A stretch of 8,517 nt of DNA from DASVDK01 sp036381125 [NCBI: Thermodesulfobacteriota bacterium] (GTDB lineage Bacteria; DASVDK01), in assembly GCA_036381125.1 (NCBI GenBank), contig DASVDK010000268.1, positions 1-8,517 on the forward strand, in the 5' to 3' direction. Made by a program: the position numbers and the translations under genes. Below the pieces are notes generated by a model, which worked only from the letters and a program-made list of their open reading frames with translations, searched no databases and was not told the origin of the DNA. Below are positions 1-8,517 of this stretch, in pieces. The stretch's first letter is position 1, and each line of letters opens with the position of its first letter.

Positions 1-89
1 AACTCCACGCGACCCATCTGCCGGGGGCGTGCCGGCGACGGCTTCGGGTGCGCCTGGCACCGTGCGGCTCCGAGGTCCGCCCAATCCAC
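1..89 (-). other. Downstream flank of the aldolase gene; possible start of a further gene
   Basis: Reading leftward after the aldolase stop, no intrinsic terminator with a U-tract is visible. A frame beginning with the GTG at 89 stays open to the window edge. It contains an ATG at 17 (MGRVE and onward), but no convincing Shine-Dalgarno precedes it. The operon may continue, but 89 bases are too few to decide. Confidence 0.2.
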
Positions 90-875
90 CTAGCTCTTGT
101 ACTCGGGGCACTCCCGGTCGAGCAGCCGCAGGAGGGCCGGCCAGGCGCGGTGGCCCGACGGGCGGCCGCCCTGCTCGAACTGCCGGGCGGTCTTCTCGCA
201 GACCTCCGGCGGCGGGATGACGAGCGGGGCGCCGGTGGACTGCGCGTCGATCTGCACCTCGCAGGCGCGGTTGAGGTTGAACATGAGGCCGAACGCCTCC
301 GGGATCGTCCGCCCGGCGGTGAGCAGCCCGTGGTTGCGCAGGATCATGGCCCGTCTGTCGCCCAGGTCGGCCACCAGGCGCGCCCGCTCGTCGAGGTCGA
401 GCGCGATCCCCTCGTAGTCGTGGTAGGCGACGCGGTTGTAGAACTGGAGCGCGTGCTGCGAGATCGGCAGGAGCCCGCAGGCGAGCGCCGACACCGCCTC
501 GCCCGCACGCGTGTGCGTGTGGAGCACGCACTCGACGTCGGGCCTGGCCATGTGGACCGCGGAGTGGATGGTGAAGCCCGCCTTGTTGATCGTGTAGGGC
601 GACTCGTCGAGGAGGTTGCCCTCGAGGTCGACCTTGACCAGGCTCGAGGCCGTGACCTCGTCGAACGTGAGCCCGTACGGATTGATGAGGAACTGATCGT
701 GCCGCCCTGGCACCCGCGCCGAGATGTGGGTGAAGATGAGGTCGGTCATCCGGAAGTGGTGGACCAGCCGGTAGCAGGCGGCCAGCTCCACCCGGACCTC
801 CCATTCGGTCTTCCGGGCCACCGGCGCCCCCTGGAGGTCGGGGATGCGCGCCAGGGCGTCGATCGTCGTCGTCAT
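90..875 (-). CDS. Class II aldolase/adducin family protein
   Basis: Cytoplasmic protein of 261 aa with the class II aldolase/adducin fold. Metal-ligand histidines are in place: H119 and H121 in CVLHTHTRAGEAVSAL, and H182 in MILRNHGLL. Another family hallmark is FTHISARVPGRHDQFLINP at 48-66. At the position of the catalytic glutamate of fuculose- and rhamnulose-phosphate aldolases, the sequence reads INKAGFTIH (96-104), with G100 where Glu is expected. This protein therefore probably belongs to the non-aldolase or atypical branch, which includes decarboxylases, dehydratases and uncharacterised proteins. It starts 17 nt after tcuB, with AGGA 8 nt before the ATG, and is the last complete gene of the operon. 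A role in handling a product of tricarboxylate oxidation is inferred from position only. The family call is firm; the reaction is unknown. Confidence 0.92.
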   Translation of the reverse strand: MTTTIDALARIPDLQGAPVARKTEWEVRVELAACYRLVHHFRMTDLIFTHISARVPGRHDQFLINPYGLTFDEVTASSLVKVDLEGNLLDESPYTINKAGFTIHSAVHMARPDVECVLHTHTRAGEAVSALACGLLPISQHALQFYNRVAYHDYEGIALDLDERARLVADLGDRRAMILRNHGLLTAGRTIPEAFGLMFNLNRACEVQIDAQSTGAPLVIPPPEVCEKTARQFEQGGRPSGHRAWPALLRLLDRECPEYKS

Positions 876-892
876 GTCCTCGATCCTACCGC

Positions 893-2005
893 TCAATGGC
901 CCCCGACCGCCGGGCGGTCGCGCTCGATGGCGTTGCGGACCAGCGCGGCGTACCGGTACCAGACGTGGGCGAACTTCCCGTAGGGCGCCGTGACGAAGAA
1001 CGCCGCCACGAAGCCGAGGTGGATCGTGAGCAGGGTCCCCATCGCCGCGGTCTCGCGGAAGGCGAGGAGCGCGAGCCCCGTGACGTTCGTCAGGTTGAGG
1101 ATGACGAGGAACGCCACGTCCATGCCGAGCATCCGCCGCTCGGCCGGCGCCCGGTCGGCCTTCGCCTTGAGCCAGAGGAGGCCCGTCGTGCCGATCACCA
1201 TCATGATCCCGCCGGACGTCCCGAGCAGCACCGGGACGCTGAAGAACGGGTAGGGGGCCTGCCAGTGGAGGAAGTGGTCGTAGATCGCCGCCGTCGTCGT
1301 CGACGCGAACGCGAGGAGGAAGCCGTAGAAGACGAGGTGGTGGTGCCACCGCCTCGACTGCGAGAAGCGCTCGTCGGGGTAGTTGCAGCCGTCCCCCCCG
1401 CCGTCCAGGTACCGGAGGCTGAAGGCGTCCTCGACCGCCTTCCAGAACGCACTGGGCGAGATCACCTGCCGGAGGCTCCCGCGCGTGTCGCGCCAGAAGC
1501 GCACGGTCCCGACGGCGAGCGCGCCGACGCCGTACAGGGTGATCGCCAGGGCCGGCAGCACCATGGCGAGGTACGGGACGACCCGGTAGAAGGCCCCTTC
1601 GCCCCGGTGGATCGAGAAGAGCACCTCGGGCCCCTGCCAGGCCAGCGTCAGGAGGAAGACGATCGCGATGGCGATCAGGCTCACCACAAGGCCCGACCGG
1701 GCGCTCTGCCGGTAGAACCGCCCGAAGATCCCCGGCCACGTGTAGTCGCGGTACGTCTCGGTGCGGAGCGCCGAGAGGATCTGCGGCACGTTGATGGCGA
1801 ACTCGTGCGGCGGGGCGTACTGGCAGGCGTAGTAGCAGGCCCGGCAGTCGAAGCAGAGGTTGGCCAGGTACGTGACGTCCGCCGCCGTGAAGACGCGCCG
1901 CCGCTCCATCGCGGGGAAGACCGCGCAAAAGCCTTCGCAGTAGCGGCAGGCGTTGCAGATGACCATCTGCCGCTCGGCCTCTCTCAGCACCTCAAGCCCG
2001 GGCAT
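893..2005 (-). CDS. tcuB: TcuB (CitB-like) iron-sulfur/membrane electron-transfer partner of TcuA
   Basis: Membrane electron-transfer protein of 370 aa that reoxidises FADH2 in TcuA and passes electrons to quinone. Two ferredoxin-type cysteine sets are intact: C17-x2-C20-x2-C23-x3-C27 and C51-x2-C54-x2-C57-x3-C61, consistent with two 4Fe-4S clusters. About six hydrophobic segments follow, near 105-122, 141-165, 222-242, 256-278, 296-316 and 322-342. Several membrane-edge histidines (H221-H223, H244, H247, H329, H346) are candidate heme ligands. The ATG at 2005 is chosen because GGGAGG lies 9 nt upstream and the protein then begins just before the first cysteine cluster; upstream in-frame sequence is low-complexity Ser/Arg/Pro and overlaps tcuA. 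The 14-nt overlap with tcuA implies coupled translation and roughly equal amounts of the two subunits. The length matches known TcuB proteins. Confidence 0.93.
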   Translation of the reverse strand: MPGLEVLREAERQMVICNACRYCEGFCAVFPAMERRRVFTAADVTYLANLCFDCRACYYACQYAPPHEFAINVPQILSALRTETYRDYTWPGIFGRFYRQSARSGLVVSLIAIAIVFLLTLAWQGPEVLFSIHRGEGAFYRVVPYLAMVLPALAITLYGVGALAVGTVRFWRDTRGSLRQVISPSAFWKAVEDAFSLRYLDGGGDGCNYPDERFSQSRRWHHHLVFYGFLLAFASTTTAAIYDHFLHWQAPYPFFSVPVLLGTSGGIMMVIGTTGLLWLKAKADRAPAERRMLGMDVAFLVILNLTNVTGLALLAFRETAAMGTLLTIHLGFVAAFFVTAPYGKFAHVWYRYAALVRNAIERDRPAVGGH

Positions 2006-3380
2006 GTCGTGCGGCCTCCCGTCCCGCGATCCTGCCGAATACCGTTCCGATGGTGAGCCCGAAGCCCGCGAGGTAGCCGCGGCCGAGGATGTTCCCGGCC
2101 ATGACCTCTCCCGCGGCGAAGACGTTGGGGGAGGGCCGCTCGCTGCGGAAGAGCACGCGCGCGTGGTCGTCGACGGCCACCCCGAGGTACGTGAACGTGA
2201 TGCCCGGCCGCAGGGGATAGGCCCAGAAGGGGGGCCGGTCGATCGGGCGGGCCCAGTGGCTCTTGACCGGCGTGATCCCCTCGGTGCGGCAGTCGTCGAG
2301 CGCGCCCGGATCGAAGCGCCCCGGCCGGACGGCGCGGTTGAAGGCGTCGACCGTCGCCTCGAGGGCGCCGGGGTCGAGGTGCAGCTCGGCGGCAAGCTCC
2401 TCGAGGCTGCCGCGCTCGATCGGCGGGAACACCGACGGCATGAAGAGGTCGAACGACTTCGAGTCGATGATGGAGTAGGCGACCTGGCCCGGCTGCTCGG
2501 CGATGAGCCCGCCCCAGATGGCGTAGCGCTTGGGCCAGAAGTCCTCCCCCTCGTCGTAGAACCGGCGCGCCTCCCGGTTGACCACGATCCCGAAGGGGAC
2601 GCTGTCGAGGCGGGTGATGATGCCGCCGTCGGTCATCGGCGCGCGGGCGTCGACCGCCACGGCGTGGAACCGGCGCGGGTTGCCGACCGGCGTGGCGCCG
2701 TGCTCGAGGAGCGCCTCGAGGACGCGGCCCTGGTTGTAGGGGGTCCCGCGGACGACGAAGTTGTCCGCGGCATCGCCCCAGTACTTCCTGAGCCACTCCC
2801 GGTTGGCCTCGAAGCCGCCCGAGGCGACGACGACCGCCTTCGCGCGGACCTCCTCCTCCCGCCCCGCGTGCGCCACGACGGCCGAGTGGAAGACGCCGTC
2901 GCGCACGTCGAGGCGCCGCACCTCCGCCTCGTAGCGGATCTCGACGCCGAGGGCGCGCGCGGTCGCGTAGTAGGCGTTCATCATCGCCTTGCCGCCGCCG
3001 AGGAAGAAGAGGTTCGTCCGGGCGAGGTGGAGCGTGCCGGAGAGGGGGCGCTGCCACCTGACGCCGTGGGCCCACATCCACTCGTCGAAGTCGGCCGACT
3101 CCCGGATCGTCAGCCGCGCCAGCGCCTCGTTGGTCTCGCCCCCCGTGACCCGGACGAGGTCGTCCCAGAACTCCTCCTCCGAGTACGGGCCGGTCACGTA
3201 CTGGGTGGCGGCGGGGTGGACGTAGCGGATGTCGCGCGTGTGGCGGCTGTTGCCGCCCCGGTAGACCTCCGGCGCCGCCTCGAGCAGGAGCACGCTCGCC
3301 CCGGCGCGGCGCGCGGTCATGGCCGCGCAGAGGGCGGCGTTGCCCCCGCCGATGACAAGGACATCGAACACGTGGCTCAC
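1992..3380 (-). CDS. tcuA: FAD-dependent tricarballylate dehydrogenase TcuA
   Basis: Flavoprotein of 462 aa, close to the length of characterised TcuA. TcuA oxidises tricarballylate to cis-aconitate and passes electrons to TcuB. The N-terminal FAD-binding Rossmann motif is VLVIGGGNAALCAA at 7-20, with ribose-binding E34. RGGNSRHTRD at 41-50 is typical of this subgroup. The substrate/capping region includes NREARRFYDEGEDFWPKRYA at 268-287, where the fumarate reductase family has its RF-x-(N/D)E motif and catalytic arginine; R285 is a candidate for the latter. The C-terminal FAD site is NVFAAGEVMAGNILGRGYLA at 419-438. TFTYLGVAVD at 395-404 replaces the TxGG motif of ordinary fumarate reductases. 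No signal peptide is present, so it is cytoplasmic or membrane-associated through TcuB. The start is GTG at 3380 with GGAGA 5 nt upstream, 15 nt after the permease stop. The gene end overlaps tcuB by 14 nt. A related tricarboxylate as substrate cannot be excluded. Confidence 0.93.
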   Translation of the reverse strand: MSHVFDVLVIGGGNAALCAAMTARRAGASVLLLEAAPEVYRGGNSRHTRDIRYVHPAATQYVTGPYSEEEFWDDLVRVTGGETNEALARLTIRESADFDEWMWAHGVRWQRPLSGTLHLARTNLFFLGGGKAMMNAYYATARALGVEIRYEAEVRRLDVRDGVFHSAVVAHAGREEEVRAKAVVVASGGFEANREWLRKYWGDAADNFVVRGTPYNQGRVLEALLEHGATPVGNPRRFHAVAVDARAPMTDGGIITRLDSVPFGIVVNREARRFYDEGEDFWPKRYAIWGGLIAEQPGQVAYSIIDSKSFDLFMPSVFPPIERGSLEELAAELHLDPGALEATVDAFNRAVRPGRFDPGALDDCRTEGITPVKSHWARPIDRPPFWAYPLRPGITFTYLGVAVDDHARVLFRSERPSPNVFAAGEVMAGNILGRGYLAGFGLTIGTVFGRIAGREAARHARA

Positions 3381-3395
3381 GTCTTTCTCCGAGGG

Positions 3396-5318
3396 TTAGA
3401 TCACGCCATGGGGCCAGGTGAGTCCGAAGAGCCGGGTCAGCCCCGACAACGCGAGGAGCACGACCAGCGTGTAGGCCGCCACGCCGGCCCACCGCATGCG
3501 GGCCATCGTGGCGAGGAAGAGCGGCACGAAGACGCCGGCGGCGACGTACGGGCCGAAGAGCCAGAGGAGGATCACGAAGGCGACCATCCACCCGAACGCC
3601 GTCAGCGCGGACCGCACCGCCGCGCCGTCGGCGGCCGGGCCCTCGGGGCCGCGCCGCATCCGACGCACGTCGAGCACGAGCTGCGCGAGGCTGACGGCCA
3701 CGCCGGGGATCGTGGCCAGCAGCGGCAGGAGCCTCGCCCCCTCGTCGAAGCCGAAGCTCGCGACGAGCGCCGCCGAGAAGACCACGAGGGTGCCGGCGCT
3801 GACCGCGACGTGCCAGGCCGGGCCGCCCTGCGGCTCCGCCTCCGCGTCGTGGCTGCGGCTCGACTTCAGGCTGCTCCGGATGCCCCACACCACCGAGAAG
3901 AGGAGGAGGAGCAGCAGGACGATGACCCAGGGCCTCGTCACCCACGAGGCGCCGTGCAGGTTCACGGTGAGCCAGTAGTACCGCTCCGTCGGGAGGCTGA
4001 GGACGTAGCCGATGAGGAGCGGCGCCCGGGGATAGTCGGCCCGCTTCATGATCCAGGCGGCGACGCCGAGGAGGATCATGGCGACGAGCGTGCCGATGTT
4101 CGGGCTGTCCTGGTAGGCGCCGACGAGCATGATGAGGAGGACCGCGGGCGCGAGCCGGACGAAGGGGACGTACGTGAGCCGGGCCAGGAGCGGGCTCATG
4201 AGGAACGCCAGCCCGGCCCCGACCACGTTGGCGATCGCGAAGCTCCAGACGATCGTGTAGACGAGGTCGAGGTGCTCGGTCATGATGCGGGGCCCCGGCT
4301 GGACGCCGAAGACCAGCAGGGCGCCCATCATGATGGCGGCCGGCACGCCGCCGGGGACGCCGAAGAGGAGCGTCGGGATGAGGTCGCCCGCCTCGACGGC
4401 GTTGTTCGCGCTCTCCGGCGCGATGATGCCCCGCACGTCGCCCCGGCCGAAGCGGCTCTTGTCGCGGCTCGACGCGACGACCTGCCCGTAGGCCATCCAG
4501 GTCCCCGCCGTGGCGCCGATCCCGGGGAGGATGCCGGCCCAGATGCCGATCAGGGCGCCGCGCAGGACGAGCCACCGGTGCCGGACGATGTCCCGGATCC
4601 CCTCGAGCCAGCCGCCGCCGATCGCCGTGAGGCTGGAGGCGACCGCGCCGCGGTGGAGGAAGTCGGCCATCTCCGCGAGGCCGAAGACGCCGAGCGCGAT
4701 CGCGATCAGCGGCAGCCCCTCCATGAGGGCGGTCGTGCCGAAGGTGAACCGGTACTCGGCGGCGTTCGGGGCCGAGCCGACCGTCCCGAGCAGGAGCCCG
4801 AGGAGGCCGGCCGCCGCCCCCTTGAGGATCTTCCCCTCGGCGAGCGACACCGCGAAGCTGACGCCGAGGAGGCAGAGCACGAAGATCTCGGGCGATCCGA
4901 ACGCGAGGACCAGCGGTCTCGCGATCGGGATCGAGAGCGTCAACCCGAACGCCCCGATGAGGCCGCCGAGCATCGAGGCGAGGAACGAGACGGCGAGCGC
5001 CCGGCCGGCCTGTCCCTGGCGGGCCAGGGCGTGCCCATCCATCATGACGACCGCCGCGGACGCCGATCCCGGGGCCGCGAGCAGGACCGCCGAGATGACG
5101 TCCGCGGTGTGGACCACCGCCACGGCGCCCACCATCAGCGCCATGGCGTGGGCCGCCTGGAGTCCGAAGACGAACGGCAGGAGAAGGGAGACCGCCGCCG
5201 TGCCCCCCAGCCCCGGAATGACGCCCACCAGCGTGCCGGTGAGCACGCCGACGAGCAGCATCCCGAGGAGACCGGGGTCGGCGAAGGCGGCGAGGGCGTC
5301 GAGGGCGGCTCCCGGCAC
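3396..5318 (-). CDS. tctA: TctA-TctB fusion permease of a tripartite tricarboxylate transporter
   Basis: Inner-membrane permease of 640 aa combining both membrane subunits of a TTT system. Residues 1 to about 485 are TctA, with its repeated hallmark loops: GVIPGLGGTAAVSLLLP at 32-48, LAAPGSASAAVVMMDGHALA at 80-99, GILPGIGATAGTWMAYGQ at 262-279 and APESANNAVEAGDLIPTLLF at 300-319. After a charged linker (about 481-500: SLKSSRSHDAEAEPQGG), residues 502-640 form a TctB-like domain with membrane segments near 503-522, 528-548, 571-589 and 592-628. TctA alone is usually about 500 aa and TctB about 150, so the length matches a fusion. The start is GTG at 5318 with GGGAG 9 nt upstream; the N-terminus aligns with typical TctA starts, so the internal ATG at residue 20 is less likely. 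The gene lies between tctC and tcuA. The transported acid is inferred from neighbours. Confidence 0.93.
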   Translation of the reverse strand: MPGAALDALAAFADPGLLGMLLVGVLTGTLVGVIPGLGGTAAVSLLLPFVFGLQAAHAMALMVGAVAVVHTADVISAVLLAAPGSASAAVVMMDGHALARQGQAGRALAVSFLASMLGGLIGAFGLTLSIPIARPLVLAFGSPEIFVLCLLGVSFAVSLAEGKILKGAAAGLLGLLLGTVGSAPNAAEYRFTFGTTALMEGLPLIAIALGVFGLAEMADFLHRGAVASSLTAIGGGWLEGIRDIVRHRWLVLRGALIGIWAGILPGIGATAGTWMAYGQVVASSRDKSRFGRGDVRGIIAPESANNAVEAGDLIPTLLFGVPGGVPAAIMMGALLVFGVQPGPRIMTEHLDLVYTIVWSFAIANVVGAGLAFLMSPLLARLTYVPFVRLAPAVLLIMLVGAYQDSPNIGTLVAMILLGVAAWIMKRADYPRAPLLIGYVLSLPTERYYWLTVNLHGASWVTRPWVIVLLLLLLFSVVWGIRSSLKSSRSHDAEAEPQGGPAWHVAVSAGTLVVFSAALVASFGFDEGARLLPLLATIPGVAVSLAQLVLDVRRMRRGPEGPAADGAAVRSALTAFGWMVAFVILLWLFGPYVAAGVFVPLFLATMARMRWAGVAAYTLVVLLALSGLTRLFGLTWPHGVI

Positions 5319-5336
5319 GGACGGCGGCTCCCGGCC

Positions 5337-6431
5337 CTAGAACTTCACGCCGAACTTCGTCGAGACGAGGTCGCGCGCGAACGCCCGGACCTCGGGCGGC
5401 AGCGACAGGGCCTCGCGCAGCGCCTTCTCGACGGCGTCGCCGGAGAAGGTCGGGTAGCCCTCCATGAGGTCCTCGCTCTTCTCCTTGAACTCGGGGCTCT
5501 CGATGAGGCGCCGCGAGCCCTCGTAGAGGGCTGCCAGCACCTCCTTCGGCGTCCCTTCGGGCGCCCAGAGCGCCTTCTGGTAGGCGAACCCGGCGGCCAT
5601 GAAGGCGAGGTACGCCCGCCAGGCCACGCCGCCGGGGGCCTCGTTGTAGATCCGCTGGTAGACCTCCGGCACGGTCGGCAGGTCGGGCACGGTCGGGTCG
5701 CGCTCGACCTTGCCCGGCCCGGTGAGGAGGCCGAACGACATGAGCGGCGTCACCTTGCCCTGGGAGATCAACGGGACGACCTGGGTCTGGTAGGCGGTCG
5801 TCGTCTGGTAGTCGACGGTCGTCTCGCCCCGCTCGAAGGCGAGCCGCGCCGGCCCGCGCCCCTCGAAGCCGAGCACCGACTTCACGTCGAGCTTGAGCAG
5901 CTCGAAGGTGAGCAGCGTGACCAGGTCGAGGCCGGTCGCGCTGATGCCGCCGTAGACGAGCGGCGTCTTCGGCTTGAGGAGGTCGGCCGGCACCTTCACC
6001 CCCGTACGGGGCGAGGTGTAGATGACGCCGCCGGTGGCGGTGACGATGACCGGCGTCAGCTTCTCGAAGTCGTAGCGGACCTGCGGCCGCCCGAGGAGGT
6101 AGTGGAACGCGGTCGTGCCCGACGTGGCCAGCAGCGTGAGGCCGTCGGGACGGGCGGAGGTGGCGAAGTGGTTGGCTCCGGTGATGCTCTCGCCGCCCGG
6201 CATGTTCCGGACGATGACGCGGGGGTTCCCCGGGACGTGCCGCTCGAGGTAGGGGGCGATGAAGCGGGCCCAGACGTCGGTGCCGCCGCCGGCGCCGAAG
6301 GGGACCACGATCTCGATCGTCTTGCCCGCGTAGTACTCGGCGGCCTGTGCCGGGGGCGCGACGAGCATCAGGCTCAGTGCCAGGACGGCGATGACGACTC
6401 GGCGGGATCCTCTCCATCGGGTGAGGGTCAT
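5337..6431 (-). CDS. tctC: TctC-like periplasmic tricarboxylate-binding protein (TTT transporter, Bug family)
   Basis: Extracytoplasmic solute receptor that captures a carboxylic acid and delivers it to the TctA/TctB permease. From the ATG at 6431 it has 364 aa. A Sec-type signal peptide is clear: basic N-region (RWRGSRR), hydrophobic core at about 12-25, and cleavage after AQA near residue 30. The mature protein starts AEYYAGKTIEIVVPFGAGGG, with the family hallmark beta-strand and glycine loop (VVPFGAGGGTDVWAR), followed by RVIVRNMPGGESITGAN at 71-87. This start is chosen over an upstream in-frame ATG at 6512 because AAGGAGGT lies 7 nt before it and the signal peptide begins there. The upstream extension is Arg-rich and leader-like only by chance. 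It is followed 18 nt later by the permease gene. The ligand cannot be read from the sequence; a tricarboxylate such as tricarballylate is inferred from tcuA and tcuB in the operon. Confidence 0.94.
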   Translation of the reverse strand: MTLTRWRGSRRVVIAVLALSLMLVAPPAQAAEYYAGKTIEIVVPFGAGGGTDVWARFIAPYLERHVPGNPRVIVRNMPGGESITGANHFATSARPDGLTLLATSGTTAFHYLLGRPQVRYDFEKLTPVIVTATGGVIYTSPRTGVKVPADLLKPKTPLVYGGISATGLDLVTLLTFELLKLDVKSVLGFEGRGPARLAFERGETTVDYQTTTAYQTQVVPLISQGKVTPLMSFGLLTGPGKVERDPTVPDLPTVPEVYQRIYNEAPGGVAWRAYLAFMAAGFAYQKALWAPEGTPKEVLAALYEGSRRLIESPEFKEKSEDLMEGYPTFSGDAVEKALREALSLPPEVRAFARDLVSTKFGVKF

Positions 6432-6438
6432 GTCGACC

Positions 6439-6446
6439 ACCTCCTT
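6439..6446 (-). promoter_or_regulatory. Near-perfect Shine-Dalgarno of tctC
   Basis: AAGGAGGT on the minus strand lies 7 nt before the ATG at 6431 and matches the full anti-Shine-Dalgarno core. The other genes of the operon have only 4-6 base matches or a bare G-run. It fixes the tctC start and suggests the binding protein is made in excess over the permease, as is usual for solute-binding-protein transporters. Confidence 0.8.
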
Positions 6447-6517
6447 GGGTAGTATCGATCCACGATGATCGCCCCGGGCGGCGGTGCGCCACACCGCTCC
6501 CGCTCGGCGCACGTTGT
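6447..6517 (-). promoter_or_regulatory. Longest intergenic gap of the operon, with two small hairpins
   Basis: This leader lies between the dehydrogenase and tctC. It holds a 6-bp perfect stem with a 5-nt loop (GCGGTG/CACCGC, 6481-6497) and a 5-bp stem with a 6-nt loop (CGATC/GATCG, 6456-6471). A GATACT close to the Shine-Dalgarno resembles a -10 box but has no matching -35. No U-tract follows either stem, so neither looks like an intrinsic terminator. Possible roles are mRNA processing or stability separating regulator/dehydrogenase from transporter expression, or a secondary promoter. Confidence 0.35.
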
Positions 6518-7612
6518 CTAGCGCGCCCGGACCGCCTCGACGACCGCCCGGGCCACGTCGCCCGTCCGGTCGCGGCCGCCGAGGTCGGGCGTGCGCACCC
6601 GTCCCTCCGCGATCACCCGGTCGACCGCGCGCGCAATCCGCGCGGCGGCGGCCCTGGCCGCGTCGTCGTCGTGACGCTGGCCGAGCCAGGCGAGCAGCAT
6701 CTGCATCGACAGGATCTCGGCCACCGGGTTGGCCATCCCGCGGCCGGCGATGTCGGGCGCCGAGCCGTGCACCGCCTGCGCCATGGCCGTCCCGGCGCCG
6801 ACGTTCAGCGACGGCGCCAGGCCGAGGCCGCCCACGAGCCCGGCCGCCTCGTCGGACAGGACGTCGCCGAAGAGGTTCGTCGTCACGACGACGTCGTACG
6901 CCTCCGGCCGCTGGACCAGGAACATGGCGAACGCGTCGACGTGGGCCGTGTCGAAGGCCACCTCGGGGTAGCGCGCCGCCGCCTCGCGGCAGCAGTCGAG
7001 GAAGAGCCCGTCGCCCAGCTTGAGCACGTTCTGCTTGTGCACGGCGGTGACGCGCCCCTGCCGGCCCCGGGCGCGCGCGCGCTCGGCCGCGAGCGCGAAG
7101 GCGTACTCCGCGATCCGGCTCGAGGCCCTGCGGGTGACGACCCGCACCGAGATCACCGTGTCGGCGTCGGGCCGGATCTCGCCGTTGCCGTCGAGCACGT
7201 TCCGGTCGGCGTAGAACCCCTCGGTGTTCTCGCGCACGACGACGAGGTCGACGCCGGCGAACCGCGTCTGGACCCCGGCGAACGACCGGGCCGGCCGCAC
7301 GTTGGCGTAGAGGTCGAACCGCTTGCGCAGGGTCCCGCTCGGGTTGGCCATCTCCGGCCGCCCGGCGGCGTAGGTGTGGTGGCTCACCGGGCCGAGGAGG
7401 AAGCCGTCGCAGGTCTCGAGCGCCGCCACCGTCGCGGCCGGCAGGGTCGAGCCCTCCCGCTCGTAGGCCGAGAGGCCCATCGGGAGCGGCACCCAGTCGA
7501 TGGCCGGGCCGCCGATCACGGCCCGCGCCGCCTCGACGGCGTCCACCGCGGGCGGGACCACTTCCGGTCCGATGCCGTCCCCCTCGAGGACGCCGATCCG
7601 GTACGGGCGCAT
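6518..7612 (-). CDS. NAD-dependent beta-decarboxylating dehydrogenase (isocitrate/isopropylmalate dehydrogenase family)
   Basis: Cytoplasmic enzyme of 364 aa, full length for the family, which oxidises a 2-hydroxy acid with a 3-carboxylate and releases CO2. Visible motifs: GDGIGPEV at 11-18; the substrate loop SGTLRKRFDLYANVRP at 92-107 with S92, R96 and R106; RENTEGFY at 127-134; catalytic K193 in VHKQN; D226, D250 and D254 binding the divalent metal; and the cofactor loop HGSAPDIAG at 282-290. D287-I288 in that loop is the NAD-type signature rather than the Lys-Tyr pair of NADP isocitrate dehydrogenase. The serine followed by LRKRFDLYANVRP resembles NAD-isocitrate and homoisocitrate dehydrogenases more than LeuB. 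No leuA, leuC or leuD is nearby, so leucine synthesis is unlikely. In this operon isocitrate is a reasonable substrate, with D-malate, tartrate or homoisocitrate as alternatives. The Shine-Dalgarno is only a G-run about 10 nt upstream, overlapping the end of the regulator gene, which suggests translational coupling. Confidence 0.92.
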   Translation of the reverse strand: MRPYRIGVLEGDGIGPEVVPPAVDAVEAARAVIGGPAIDWVPLPMGLSAYEREGSTLPAATVAALETCDGFLLGPVSHHTYAAGRPEMANPSGTLRKRFDLYANVRPARSFAGVQTRFAGVDLVVVRENTEGFYADRNVLDGNGEIRPDADTVISVRVVTRRASSRIAEYAFALAAERARARGRQGRVTAVHKQNVLKLGDGLFLDCCREAAARYPEVAFDTAHVDAFAMFLVQRPEAYDVVVTTNLFGDVLSDEAAGLVGGLGLAPSLNVGAGTAMAQAVHGSAPDIAGRGMANPVAEILSMQMLLAWLGQRHDDDAARAAAARIARAVDRVIAEGRVRTPDLGGRDRTGDVARAVVEAVRAR

Positions 7613-7619
7613 CGCGAGA

Positions 7620-8345
7620 CTACCCCCCGATCCGCGTCCGGCGCCCGGGGGGCGGGCCGTCGAGTGAGGTGCCGTAATGGTCGCGGGCCATCGCGAGGCG
7701 GACCGCCATCGCGTGCTCCATGTGCGTCCGGGCGACCGCCTCGGCCCGGGCGGAGTCGCGGTCGCGCAGCGCGCCGACGAGCGCCTCGTGCTCCGCGGCG
7801 ACCTCGGCCAGGCGACCGGGGTGCTCGAAGGTGGTCCGGCGGAAGCGGCCGAGCGTGTCGTAGATCCTCGACATGAAGTCGAGGAGGAGCGGGTTGCGCG
7901 CCGCCTGGCAGATCGCCCGGTGCAGCTCGAGGTTCAGCGCGGCGAGCGCCTTCGCGTCGGGACGGGGCTTGCGGAGCCCCGCGGTGAACCGCTCGTGCAG
8001 CGCCTCGATCTGCGCGAGGTGCAGCGGCGTGAGGCGCGTCGCGGCGAGCCGGGCCGCGGTTGCCTCGAGGGGGACCCGCACCTCGTAGAGGTCCGCGATC
8101 TGCTCCTCCGTCAGCTCCCGGACCACGAGGCCCGCCGGCGTCTCCTCGGCGAACCCCTCGGTCACGAGGCGCAGGATCGCCTCGCGCACCGGCGTCCGGC
8201 TCGCCTTGACCGACGCGGCGATCTGCCCCGCGACGAGCCTCGTCCCGGGAGCGAGGTCGCCGTTCAGGATCCGCTGCCGGATGAGGGCGTAGACGCGATC
8301 CCGGGTCGACGACCGTCCGGAGGGCGCGGCCGCATTCACCTGCAT
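7620..8345 (-). CDS. GntR-family transcriptional regulator, FCD (FadR C-terminal domain) subfamily
   Basis: Ligand-responsive DNA-binding protein of 241 aa, a normal length for the FCD subfamily. The N-terminal winged helix-turn-helix spans about residues 14-75, with the recognition part near 41-65 (QIAASVKASRTPVREAILRL). The C-terminal all-helical FCD domain spans about 80-225. Its expected metal/ligand residues are visible: N138 and H142 in LNLELH, H186 in AAEHEAL and H208 in RTHMEH. FCD domains typically sense carboxylic acids, which fits the transporter and tricarboxylate enzymes downstream. It is the first gene of the operon and ends 7 nt before the dehydrogenase, so it should be co-transcribed and probably self-regulating. 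The ATG at 8345 lies inside a palindrome and has only a close AGGTG as Shine-Dalgarno. A GTG two codons later is an alternative start. The family call is firm; the effector, presumably the transported acid, is inferred. Confidence 0.93.
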   Translation of the reverse strand: MQVNAAAPSGRSSTRDRVYALIRQRILNGDLAPGTRLVAGQIAASVKASRTPVREAILRLVTEGFAEETPAGLVVRELTEEQIADLYEVRVPLEATAARLAATRLTPLHLAQIEALHERFTAGLRKPRPDAKALAALNLELHRAICQAARNPLLLDFMSRIYDTLGRFRRTTFEHPGRLAEVAAEHEALVGALRDRDSARAEAVARTHMEHAMAVRLAMARDHYGTSLDGPPPGRRTRIGG

Positions 8346-8359
8346 GCACCTGTATGCAG
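8340..8359. promoter_or_regulatory. Candidate GntR operator: 20-bp imperfect palindrome over the regulator start codon
   Basis: Arms CTGCATGCA (8340-8348) and TGTATGCAG (8351-8359) are inverted repeats matching at 8 of 9 positions around a CC centre. The same stretch also reads as a tandem direct repeat, ACCTGCATGC (8338-8347) then ACCTGTATGC (8348-8357). TGTATGCA resembles the TGTATACA-type cores bound by several FCD-subfamily GntR proteins (established for the family, recalled here). Its position directly in front of a GntR gene supports autoregulation of the whole operon. The regulator ATG (8343-8345) is inside the left arm. Confidence 0.6.
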
Positions 8360-8370
8360 CATCACGAACA

Positions 8371-8400
8371 CCGTTAGCACGAGCGCGGGCCGGGCGTCAA
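8371..8400 (-). promoter_or_regulatory. Possible sigma-70-type promoter of the operon
   Basis: On the minus strand TTGACG (8395-8400) is a good -35 match. A weak -10 candidate, TAACGG, lies 18 bp downstream at 8371-8376, or CTAACG with 17 bp spacing. Transcription would begin near 8363, a few bases before the palindrome at 8340-8359, so a bound regulator could block initiation or early elongation. The poor -10 keeps confidence low. Confidence 0.35.
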
Positions 8401-8418
8401 GGCAGCGCATCCCCGCAA

Positions 8419-8517
8419 GCGGCCCCTGGGGTCAGGTCTTTCCATTTTCCAGGGGGTCAGGTCTTTCCATTTTCCAGACGCGGCCCCTGGGGTCAGGTCT
8501 TTCCATTTTCCAGGGGG
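8419..8517. repeat. Short tandem repeat array: 25-bp unit in a 61-bp higher-order period
   Basis: Three identical 25-bp copies, beginning GGGGTCAGGTC and ending CCATTTTCCAG, lie at 8428-8452, 8453-8477 and 8489-8513. GGGG at 8514-8517 begins a fourth. Copies 1 and 2 abut. Copies 1 and 3 are each preceded by GCGGCCCCT (8419-8427 and 8480-8488), giving a 61-bp super-repeat. CCCCTGGGG at each junction is a small palindrome. The AT-richer repeat contrasts with the surrounding GC-rich DNA. The array runs off the right edge. I recall similar GGGGTCAGGTCTT elements beside IS200/REP-associated transposases in high-GC genomes, but this is unverified and no transposase is in the window. Confidence 0.9.

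Follow-up and report, generated by a model that had tools for sequence, protein, structure and literature searches.

Here we describe a seven-gene unit on a stretch of DNA of 8,517 nucleotides (nt) from a Thermodesulfobacteriota bacterium (DASVDK01 sp036381125; GenBank assembly GCA_036381125.1, contig DASVDK010000268.1, positions 1 to 8,517), which is called the window below. Its most likely function is to take up a tricarboxylate (tricarballylate or aconitate, for example) and to channel it into central metabolism. On balance, we consider it probable that the genes form a GntR-controlled tricarboxylate catabolic operon, most likely for tricarballylate and/or aconitate, and that the operon takes part in the full route from tricarballylate to 2-oxoglutarate set out below. 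The genes are as follows:

7620..8345, minus strand: regulator of the GntR family carrying an FCD ligand domain; the unit begins with this gene, which has an ATG start (PF00392, 52.6 bits; PF07729, 106.8 bits)
6518..7612, minus strand: Iso_dh (isocitrate/isopropylmalate-family, beta-decarboxylating) dehydrogenase of the NPSG subfamily, probably NAD-dependent (PF00180, 298.6 bits)
5337..6431 (open reading frame to 6512), minus strand: periplasmic binding protein resembling TctC, with a signal-like N-terminal segment (PF03401, 25.9 bits; PDB 6hke, 6.8e-12)
3396..5318, minus strand: fusion of TctA with a TctB-like C-terminal part of four helices (PF01970, 399.7 bits; PF07331, 20.5 bits)
1992..3380, minus strand: TcuA, FAD-dependent tricarballylate dehydrogenase family (NF006130, 706.9 bits; TIGR02485, 618.2 bits)
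893..2005, minus strand: TcuB, the membrane partner in electron transfer, carrying two four-cysteine motifs of the 4Fe-4S type (TIGR02484, 430.4 bits)
90..875, minus strand: class II aldolase/adducin-fold protein, NF005451 (PRK07044) subfamily (PF00596, 174.4 bits; NF005451, 386 bits)

The genes span positions 90-8345 in an operon-like layout, running from the GntR gene through the dehydrogenase gene, tctC, tctAB, tcuA and tcuB to the aldolase-fold gene. The coordinates gave an overlap of 14 nt between tcuA and tcuB and, for the remaining junctions in order, gaps of 7, 86, 18, 15 and 17 nt, the first separating the GntR gene from the dehydrogenase gene and the last separating tcuB from the aldolase-fold gene. 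The seven genes are probably co-transcribed. A first-pass annotation of this DNA had named the same co-directional set (tcuA, tcuB, a GntR regulator, a dehydrogenase, tctC, a tctA-tctB fusion and an aldolase-family gene), and all seven were confirmed on the minus strand.

Both Tcu proteins were assigned by equivalog models. TcuA cleared the NCBIfam cut-offs of NF006130 (369) and TIGR02485 (372.55), and TcuB cleared that of TIGR02484 (246.6); against the subfamily model NF011607, TcuB reached 437.5 bits, below the cut-off of 524. The cysteine motifs of TcuB lie at residues 17-27 and 51-61, and the protein has several hydrophobic segments. The nearest solved structures to TcuA are fumarate reductases, which are distant. 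By the equivalog cut-offs, the window shares with Salmonella tcuRABC the TcuA dehydrogenase and its membrane partner TcuB. The tcu regulator of Salmonella is of the LysR type. The Salmonella operon comprises tcuA, tcuB and the transporter gene tcuC, according to PMC10468695. The window differs in having a tripartite tricarboxylate transporter (TTT) in place of the TcuC permease, a GntR regulator and two further enzyme genes; no TcuC-type major facilitator superfamily (MFS) permease is present among its seven genes. The window keeps the tcu enzyme pair and replaces uptake and regulation. This broadens the use of tricarballylate or aconitate beyond the Salmonella operon, to a form that is fed by a TTT and occurs in many lineages. 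A sponge metaproteome study (PMC6081418) lists tricarballylate dehydrogenase (CobZ) as one of the functions most detected in a putative Tectomicrobium.

The transporter genes resemble those of TctCBA systems in that they encode a TctA domain and a TctC-like binding protein, and differ in that the TctB part and TctC are divergent, both scoring under the Pfam cut-offs. The TctA domain occupies residues 18-435 of the fusion protein and scored far above the cut-off of 28.9. Its C-terminal, TctB-like part remained below the cut-off of 29.1, yet the whole profile was covered, and hydropathy analysis revealed four hydrophobic segments. Fused TctAB proteins may occur in some rare cases, as stated in PMC5812351. 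The TctC-like protein fell just short of its Pfam cut-off of 27 and matched solved TctC/Bug proteins with values down to 6.8e-12 (TctC 6hke). Within the open reading frame 5337-6512, the probable start of its gene is the ATG at 6431, preceded by the Shine-Dalgarno-like sequence AAGGAGGTG.

According to our model, TctC would capture the acid in the periplasm for import by the TctA-TctB fusion. TcuA could then oxidise tricarballylate to cis-aconitate by means of its FAD, passing the electrons via TcuB to the quinone pool, and an aconitase encoded outside the window would hydrate cis-aconitate to isocitrate. The NPSG-type dehydrogenase may convert isocitrate, or a close tricarboxylate relative, with NAD to a 2-oxo acid by oxidative decarboxylation. 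The aldolase-fold protein would be accessory.

We surveyed the neighbourhoods of tcuA in other genomes (L numbers denote comparison loci, G numbers genomes). Set A held the best 80 of at least 577 confirmed TcuA relatives in the genome collection and set B the 26 TcuA places found when 385 genomes of one class were searched (25 genomes had such a place); together they gave 106 places, or 103 distinct loci after removal of three overlaps. Eleven plasmid loci (set C), chosen in part via TctC matches, and the four loci of set D were kept outside the enrichment count. Near tcuA in set A, we found genes for TcuB (78 of 80 loci), TctC (26), TctA (19), GntR regulators (16), MmgE/PrpD (13), PrpF (9), Iso_dh (7), the aconitase family (2, one of them weak) and the aldolase (1). 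The corresponding numbers for the 26 places of set B were 26 for TcuB, 9 for GntR, 6 for PrpF, 5 each for TctC and TctA, 2 for Iso_dh, 2 for the aldolase (one at the same place as in set A, one weak), 1 for MmgE/PrpD and 0 for aconitase. The plasmid loci contained GntR in 10 cases, PrpF in 7, Iso_dh in 3 and aconitase in 1. The first-pass annotation had treated a GntR regulator and a TTT beside tcuAB as marks of a variant operon. This was overstated: both are common in the survey (GntR in 16/80, 9/26 and 10/11 loci, TctC in 26/80 and TctA in 19/80), and we rejected the combination as a distinctive trait.

An Iso_dh gene was located 0.75-8.2 kb from tcuA in 9 of the 103 distinct loci. The background, determined for 51 of the surveyed genomes, was 202 Iso_dh genes in 224 Mb (0.90 per Mb), which predicts 1.6 occurrences for 106 places and approximately 1.5 for 103. 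The survey shows an enrichment of Iso_dh near tcuA and not a rate, as shared ancestry was ignored and a large number of the contigs are short. A dehydrogenase of this family accompanies tcuAB in a minority of loci, but does so repeatedly. By best match and loop, the NPSG type occurs near tcuA in L028, L235 and L236 and on the plasmids L082, L083 and L142. Other loci carry an LGG-loop type (L004, L260), the NAD-dependent isocitrate dehydrogenase (IDH) type (L042 and, judged from a partial gene, L062), the NADP-IDH type (L010, L261, L262) or the Icd type (L007). Several Iso_dh subfamilies thus stand near tcuA, which points to repeated recruitment.

A few of these loci also carry an aconitase. 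In L260, the genes for Iso_dh, tcuA, tcuB and an aconitate hydratase (PRK07229, 885.6 bits, cut-off 612) form one row. L261 has acnA, tctAB, tctC, tcuB and tcuA on one strand and, on the other, genes for a PrpR-like activator, PrpF, a LarA-family racemase, MmgE/PrpD and NADP-IDH; its AcnA scored 1293.9 with TIGR01341 (cut-off 945) and its NADP-IDH 627 with PRK08299 (cut-off 335). L010, from a Desulfacinum metagenome-assembled genome, encodes relatives of the L261 AcnA (75% identity), PrpF (76%) and IDH (83%), and TTT relatives as well. L262 contains NADP-IDH and PrpF genes and a weak aconitase-family match (28%), and a Shinella plasmid has acnA at a distance of 0.4 kb from tcuA. Loci that combine Iso_dh and aconitase near tcuAB support the route tricarballylate to cis-aconitate to isocitrate to 2-oxoglutarate. 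L260, L261 and L010, which hold all enzyme steps, offer a direct test bed for it. The comparison thereby supports reading the window as a tricarballylate-type operon that has TTT uptake and its own dehydrogenase, as comparative loci place Iso_dh, and in a few cases also aconitase, near tcuAB. We infer the extension of the route to the window, because the clade of its dehydrogenase lacks an assigned substrate and the window shows no aconitase.

PrpF-family genes recall a further system. In Bacillus velezensis, tarABR serves the assimilation of trans-aconitate, with the isomerase TarA of the PrpF superfamily and an MFS importer (PMC11495376). The likeness lies in the feeding of aconitate into the tricarboxylic acid (TCA) cycle and in the PrpF-family genes near tcuA in 9/80 loci. 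The differences are that the window has no PrpF gene, that the tar importer is an MFS protein, and that the main text of PMC11495376 does not mention tcuA. Genes for TctC, a TctAB fusion and a PrpF-family isomerase ('4-oxalomesaconate tautomerase') recur together in L081, L082, L083, L085, L136, L140, L142, L235 and L236; tcuAB and a GntR gene are near this cluster in all of them but L081, whose tcuAB lies approximately 15 kb away. A fixed set of TTT, PrpF and tcuAB genes was rejected, with L084 (Sagittula), which has TctC and TctAB without PrpF or tcuAB, as the counterexample.

The dehydrogenase belongs to the Iso_dh superfamily, as judged from the PF00180 score and the conservation of R96, R106, R127, Y134, K193, D226, D250 and D254, which we take to be the catalytic residues. 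It also carries the pair D287-I288, presumably typical of NAD enzymes. It reached no NCBIfam cut-off, the best IDH model being NF006529 with 308.7 against 510. The specificity loop reads GPVSH..NPSGTLR. In the alignment, an N and an S of the window's enzyme occupy the positions of S113 and N115 of E. coli Icd, where LeuB and DmlA have Gly and Leu. The polar pocket would favour a substrate with a carboxylate over an alkyl malate. The enzyme thus resembles NAD-isocitrate and homoisocitrate dehydrogenases in fold (by sequence), catalytic residues and D-I pair, whereas its NPSG loop differs from the S-x-N of IDH and from that of the Thermus homoisocitrate dehydrogenase. In a tree of 54 rows with E. 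coli Icd, LeuB and DmlA as references, and without the Thermus homoisocitrate dehydrogenase, it fell into a clade of 32 rows with support 100/98, which was separate from both the Icd-type clade and LeuB/DmlA. Since it groups with neither, the step from isocitrate to 2-oxoglutarate is only tentatively assigned to it. The clade has a recognisable loop, and a substrate is assigned to it in none of the libraries searched. Among 247 genomes of one phylum, the best match to the enzyme was 49% identical. In L243 and L244, a clade dehydrogenase and an Asp/Glu-racemase-family gene adjoin TctC and TctA genes, accompanied in L244 by acnA. A Bradyrhizobium plasmid cluster (L086) combines a relative of the dehydrogenase with a phosphoenolpyruvate-mutase/isocitrate-lyase family gene and an aconitase-like gene, and presumably resembles a phosphonate-type biosynthetic set.

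The distinct clade and loop, which set the enzyme apart from E. coli Icd, LeuB, DmlA, solved IDH and homoisocitrate dehydrogenases, bear on an alternative in which a different tricarboxylate is degraded, e.g., a tricarballylate bearing a hydroxyl, methyl or other substituent. The substrate of the NPSG dehydrogenase would then be an isocitrate with the matching substituent, and its product would be cleaved or decarboxylated by the aldolase-fold protein. The Bradyrhizobium cluster with its clade member hints at other isocitrate analogues, and the aldolase-fold gene follows tcuB after 17 nt. Ordinary IDH types, however, are also found near tcuAB, and the aldolase is not conserved with tcuAB and was seen near this dehydrogenase clade only in L245, at a distance of 14 kb. 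We regard this alternative as unlikely. The same holds for a related reading, in which the NPSG clade uses a non-TCA tricarboxylate and, together with TcuAB, the TTT and the 'aldolase' (devoid of the catalytic Glu73, see below) as lyase or decarboxylase, makes up an undescribed route for modified tricarballylate; we would give it little credence.

The gene order in the closest relatives also bears on the tricarballylate/aconitate operon reading. The best full-length TcuA relatives are 71-74% identical to the window's protein. In a second sample of 297 genomes, five had a full-length close TcuA (65-74%) and one more had a fragment (G091); an Iso_dh gene was present in three of the five (L260, L261 and L262, not L259 and L015), which speaks for the reading. 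In its favour, too, L015 and L002 (TcuA at least 71%) keep tctC-tctAB-tcuA-tcuB in the window's order; the sequence of L003 (likewise at least 71%) is too short to judge gene order. The window's dehydrogenase and aldolase were seen in none of L015, L002, L001, L259 and L003 within the DNA examined. Our genome searches found no relative with the same seven genes, and among the matches listed from the open-access literature, no title or abstract opening contained the combination of TcuAB, TTT and Iso_dh.

Several observations weigh against the operon reading. L001 lacks tctC/tctAB in the 10 kb upstream, L259 has TctC and TctA genes of another type after tcuB, and L015, L002 and L001 have an MmgE/PrpD gene near tcuAB instead of Iso_dh. 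No Iso_dh gene was seen in 94/103 loci within the DNA examined, where many contigs are short, and some of those found at 0.75-8.2 kb may be mere neighbours. The enrichment value (P = 4e-5 for 106 places) was calculated as if related genomes were independent, and it compares tblastn matches with a background derived from hidden Markov models. The Iso_dh of L057 is closest to the D-malate dehydrogenase DmlA, a misfit for the isocitrate step. As for the window's own enzymes, the tree sets the dehydrogenase apart from Icd-type IDH and the IDH model cut-offs were unmet; the Asp of the D-I pair is Ser in two Paracoccus relatives and is thus not invariant; clade members also occur without tcuAB in approximately 19 kb of DNA; and an aconitase gene is absent from the window. 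Finally, the ligands of TctC cannot be read from its sequence.

The tree further showed that the sister group of the window's dehydrogenase consists of seven rows, mainly from Burkholderiales, and not of other tcuAB-neighbouring members. Therefore, the link between dehydrogenase and tcuAB may be a separate event. This position, together with MmgE/PrpD genes in two of the three sister-group neighbourhoods examined, would fit two modules under one regulator, i.e., GntR, dehydrogenase and TTT for another hydroxy-acid, next to a separate tcuAB, with the dehydrogenase serving the first module only. Clade members that accompany TTT genes without tcuAB, as in L243 and L244 with their Asp/Glu-racemase-family gene, point in the same direction. 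Against such a division, tctC-tctAB-tcuA-tcuB are contiguous in L015 and L002, both without such a dehydrogenase, and L235 and L236 have the dehydrogenase next to TTT and PrpF genes, with tcuAB alongside. We consider the two-module arrangement distinctly unlikely.

The aldolase-fold protein exceeded the cut-off of 207 for NF005451, a family that bears only the NCBIfam name 'aldolase II superfamily protein'. Its sequence indicates the same fold as in FucA-type class II aldolases, and three histidines (H119, H121 and H182) align with the zinc ligands of FucA; they are invariant in eight rows and presumably have the same role as in FucA. In contrast to FucA, the protein has Gly100 at the position of the catalytic Glu73 of FucA, and Gly occupies this position in all seven non-FucA rows, i.e., in the window protein and six relatives. 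It is probably not an ordinary aldolase, and the name aldolase should not be applied to its function. Strong relatives occur in 26 of 79 tcuA-bearing genomes (53 places), and only one of them adjoins tcuA in the DNA examined (genome G007, where L044 and L253 are the same place); the second match near tcuA (L284, 34%) is weak. Elsewhere, relatives adjoin genes for peptide-type ABC transporters and deacylases, transhydrogenase, electron-transfer flavoproteins and others. Six plasmid neighbourhoods showed no tcu genes in their (incomplete) annotation, and one of them (L232) has an unaccompanied TctC gene. With one strong case in 103 tcuA loci, mixed neighbours elsewhere and Gly at the Glu73 position, we rejected as unsupported the role of pathway enzyme that the first-pass annotation had considered for the aldolase. 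That annotation had named lack of conservation of the two enzymes with tcuAB as a refutation of its reading; this turned out to hold for the aldolase but not for the dehydrogenase, although the latter recurs in a minority of loci only. In four genomes (L208, L209, L212, L214), an aldolase of the window's subfamily adjoins a TcuA-like flavoprotein of 33-34% identity.

Dehydrogenase and aldolase might both be passengers, brought together by chance in one lineage and sharing no pathway. Indeed, tcuAB, an NPSG dehydrogenase and the aldolase occur together in 0/121 places examined. The arrangement of all seven genes on one strand, separated by 7-86 nt or overlapping, argues against chance, as does the number of Iso_dh genes near tcuA above expectation. 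We judge this explanation very improbable for the pair; it is credible for the aldolase-fold protein and less so for the dehydrogenase.

No tRNA gene was found in the window. At its end, upstream of the GntR gene (8419-8517), lie three repeat copies around GGGGTCAGGTCTTTCCATTTTCC, which we take to resemble repetitive extragenic palindromic (REP)-like elements; the exact 13-mer GGGGTCAGGTCTT from this repeat was absent from the other loci compared. The GC content of the window is 68-76%, and very long open reading frames, probably a consequence of this high value, run out of frame with the real genes, one of 1499 aa at 1953-6452 on the plus strand and one of 1502 aa at 1984-6492 on the minus strand.

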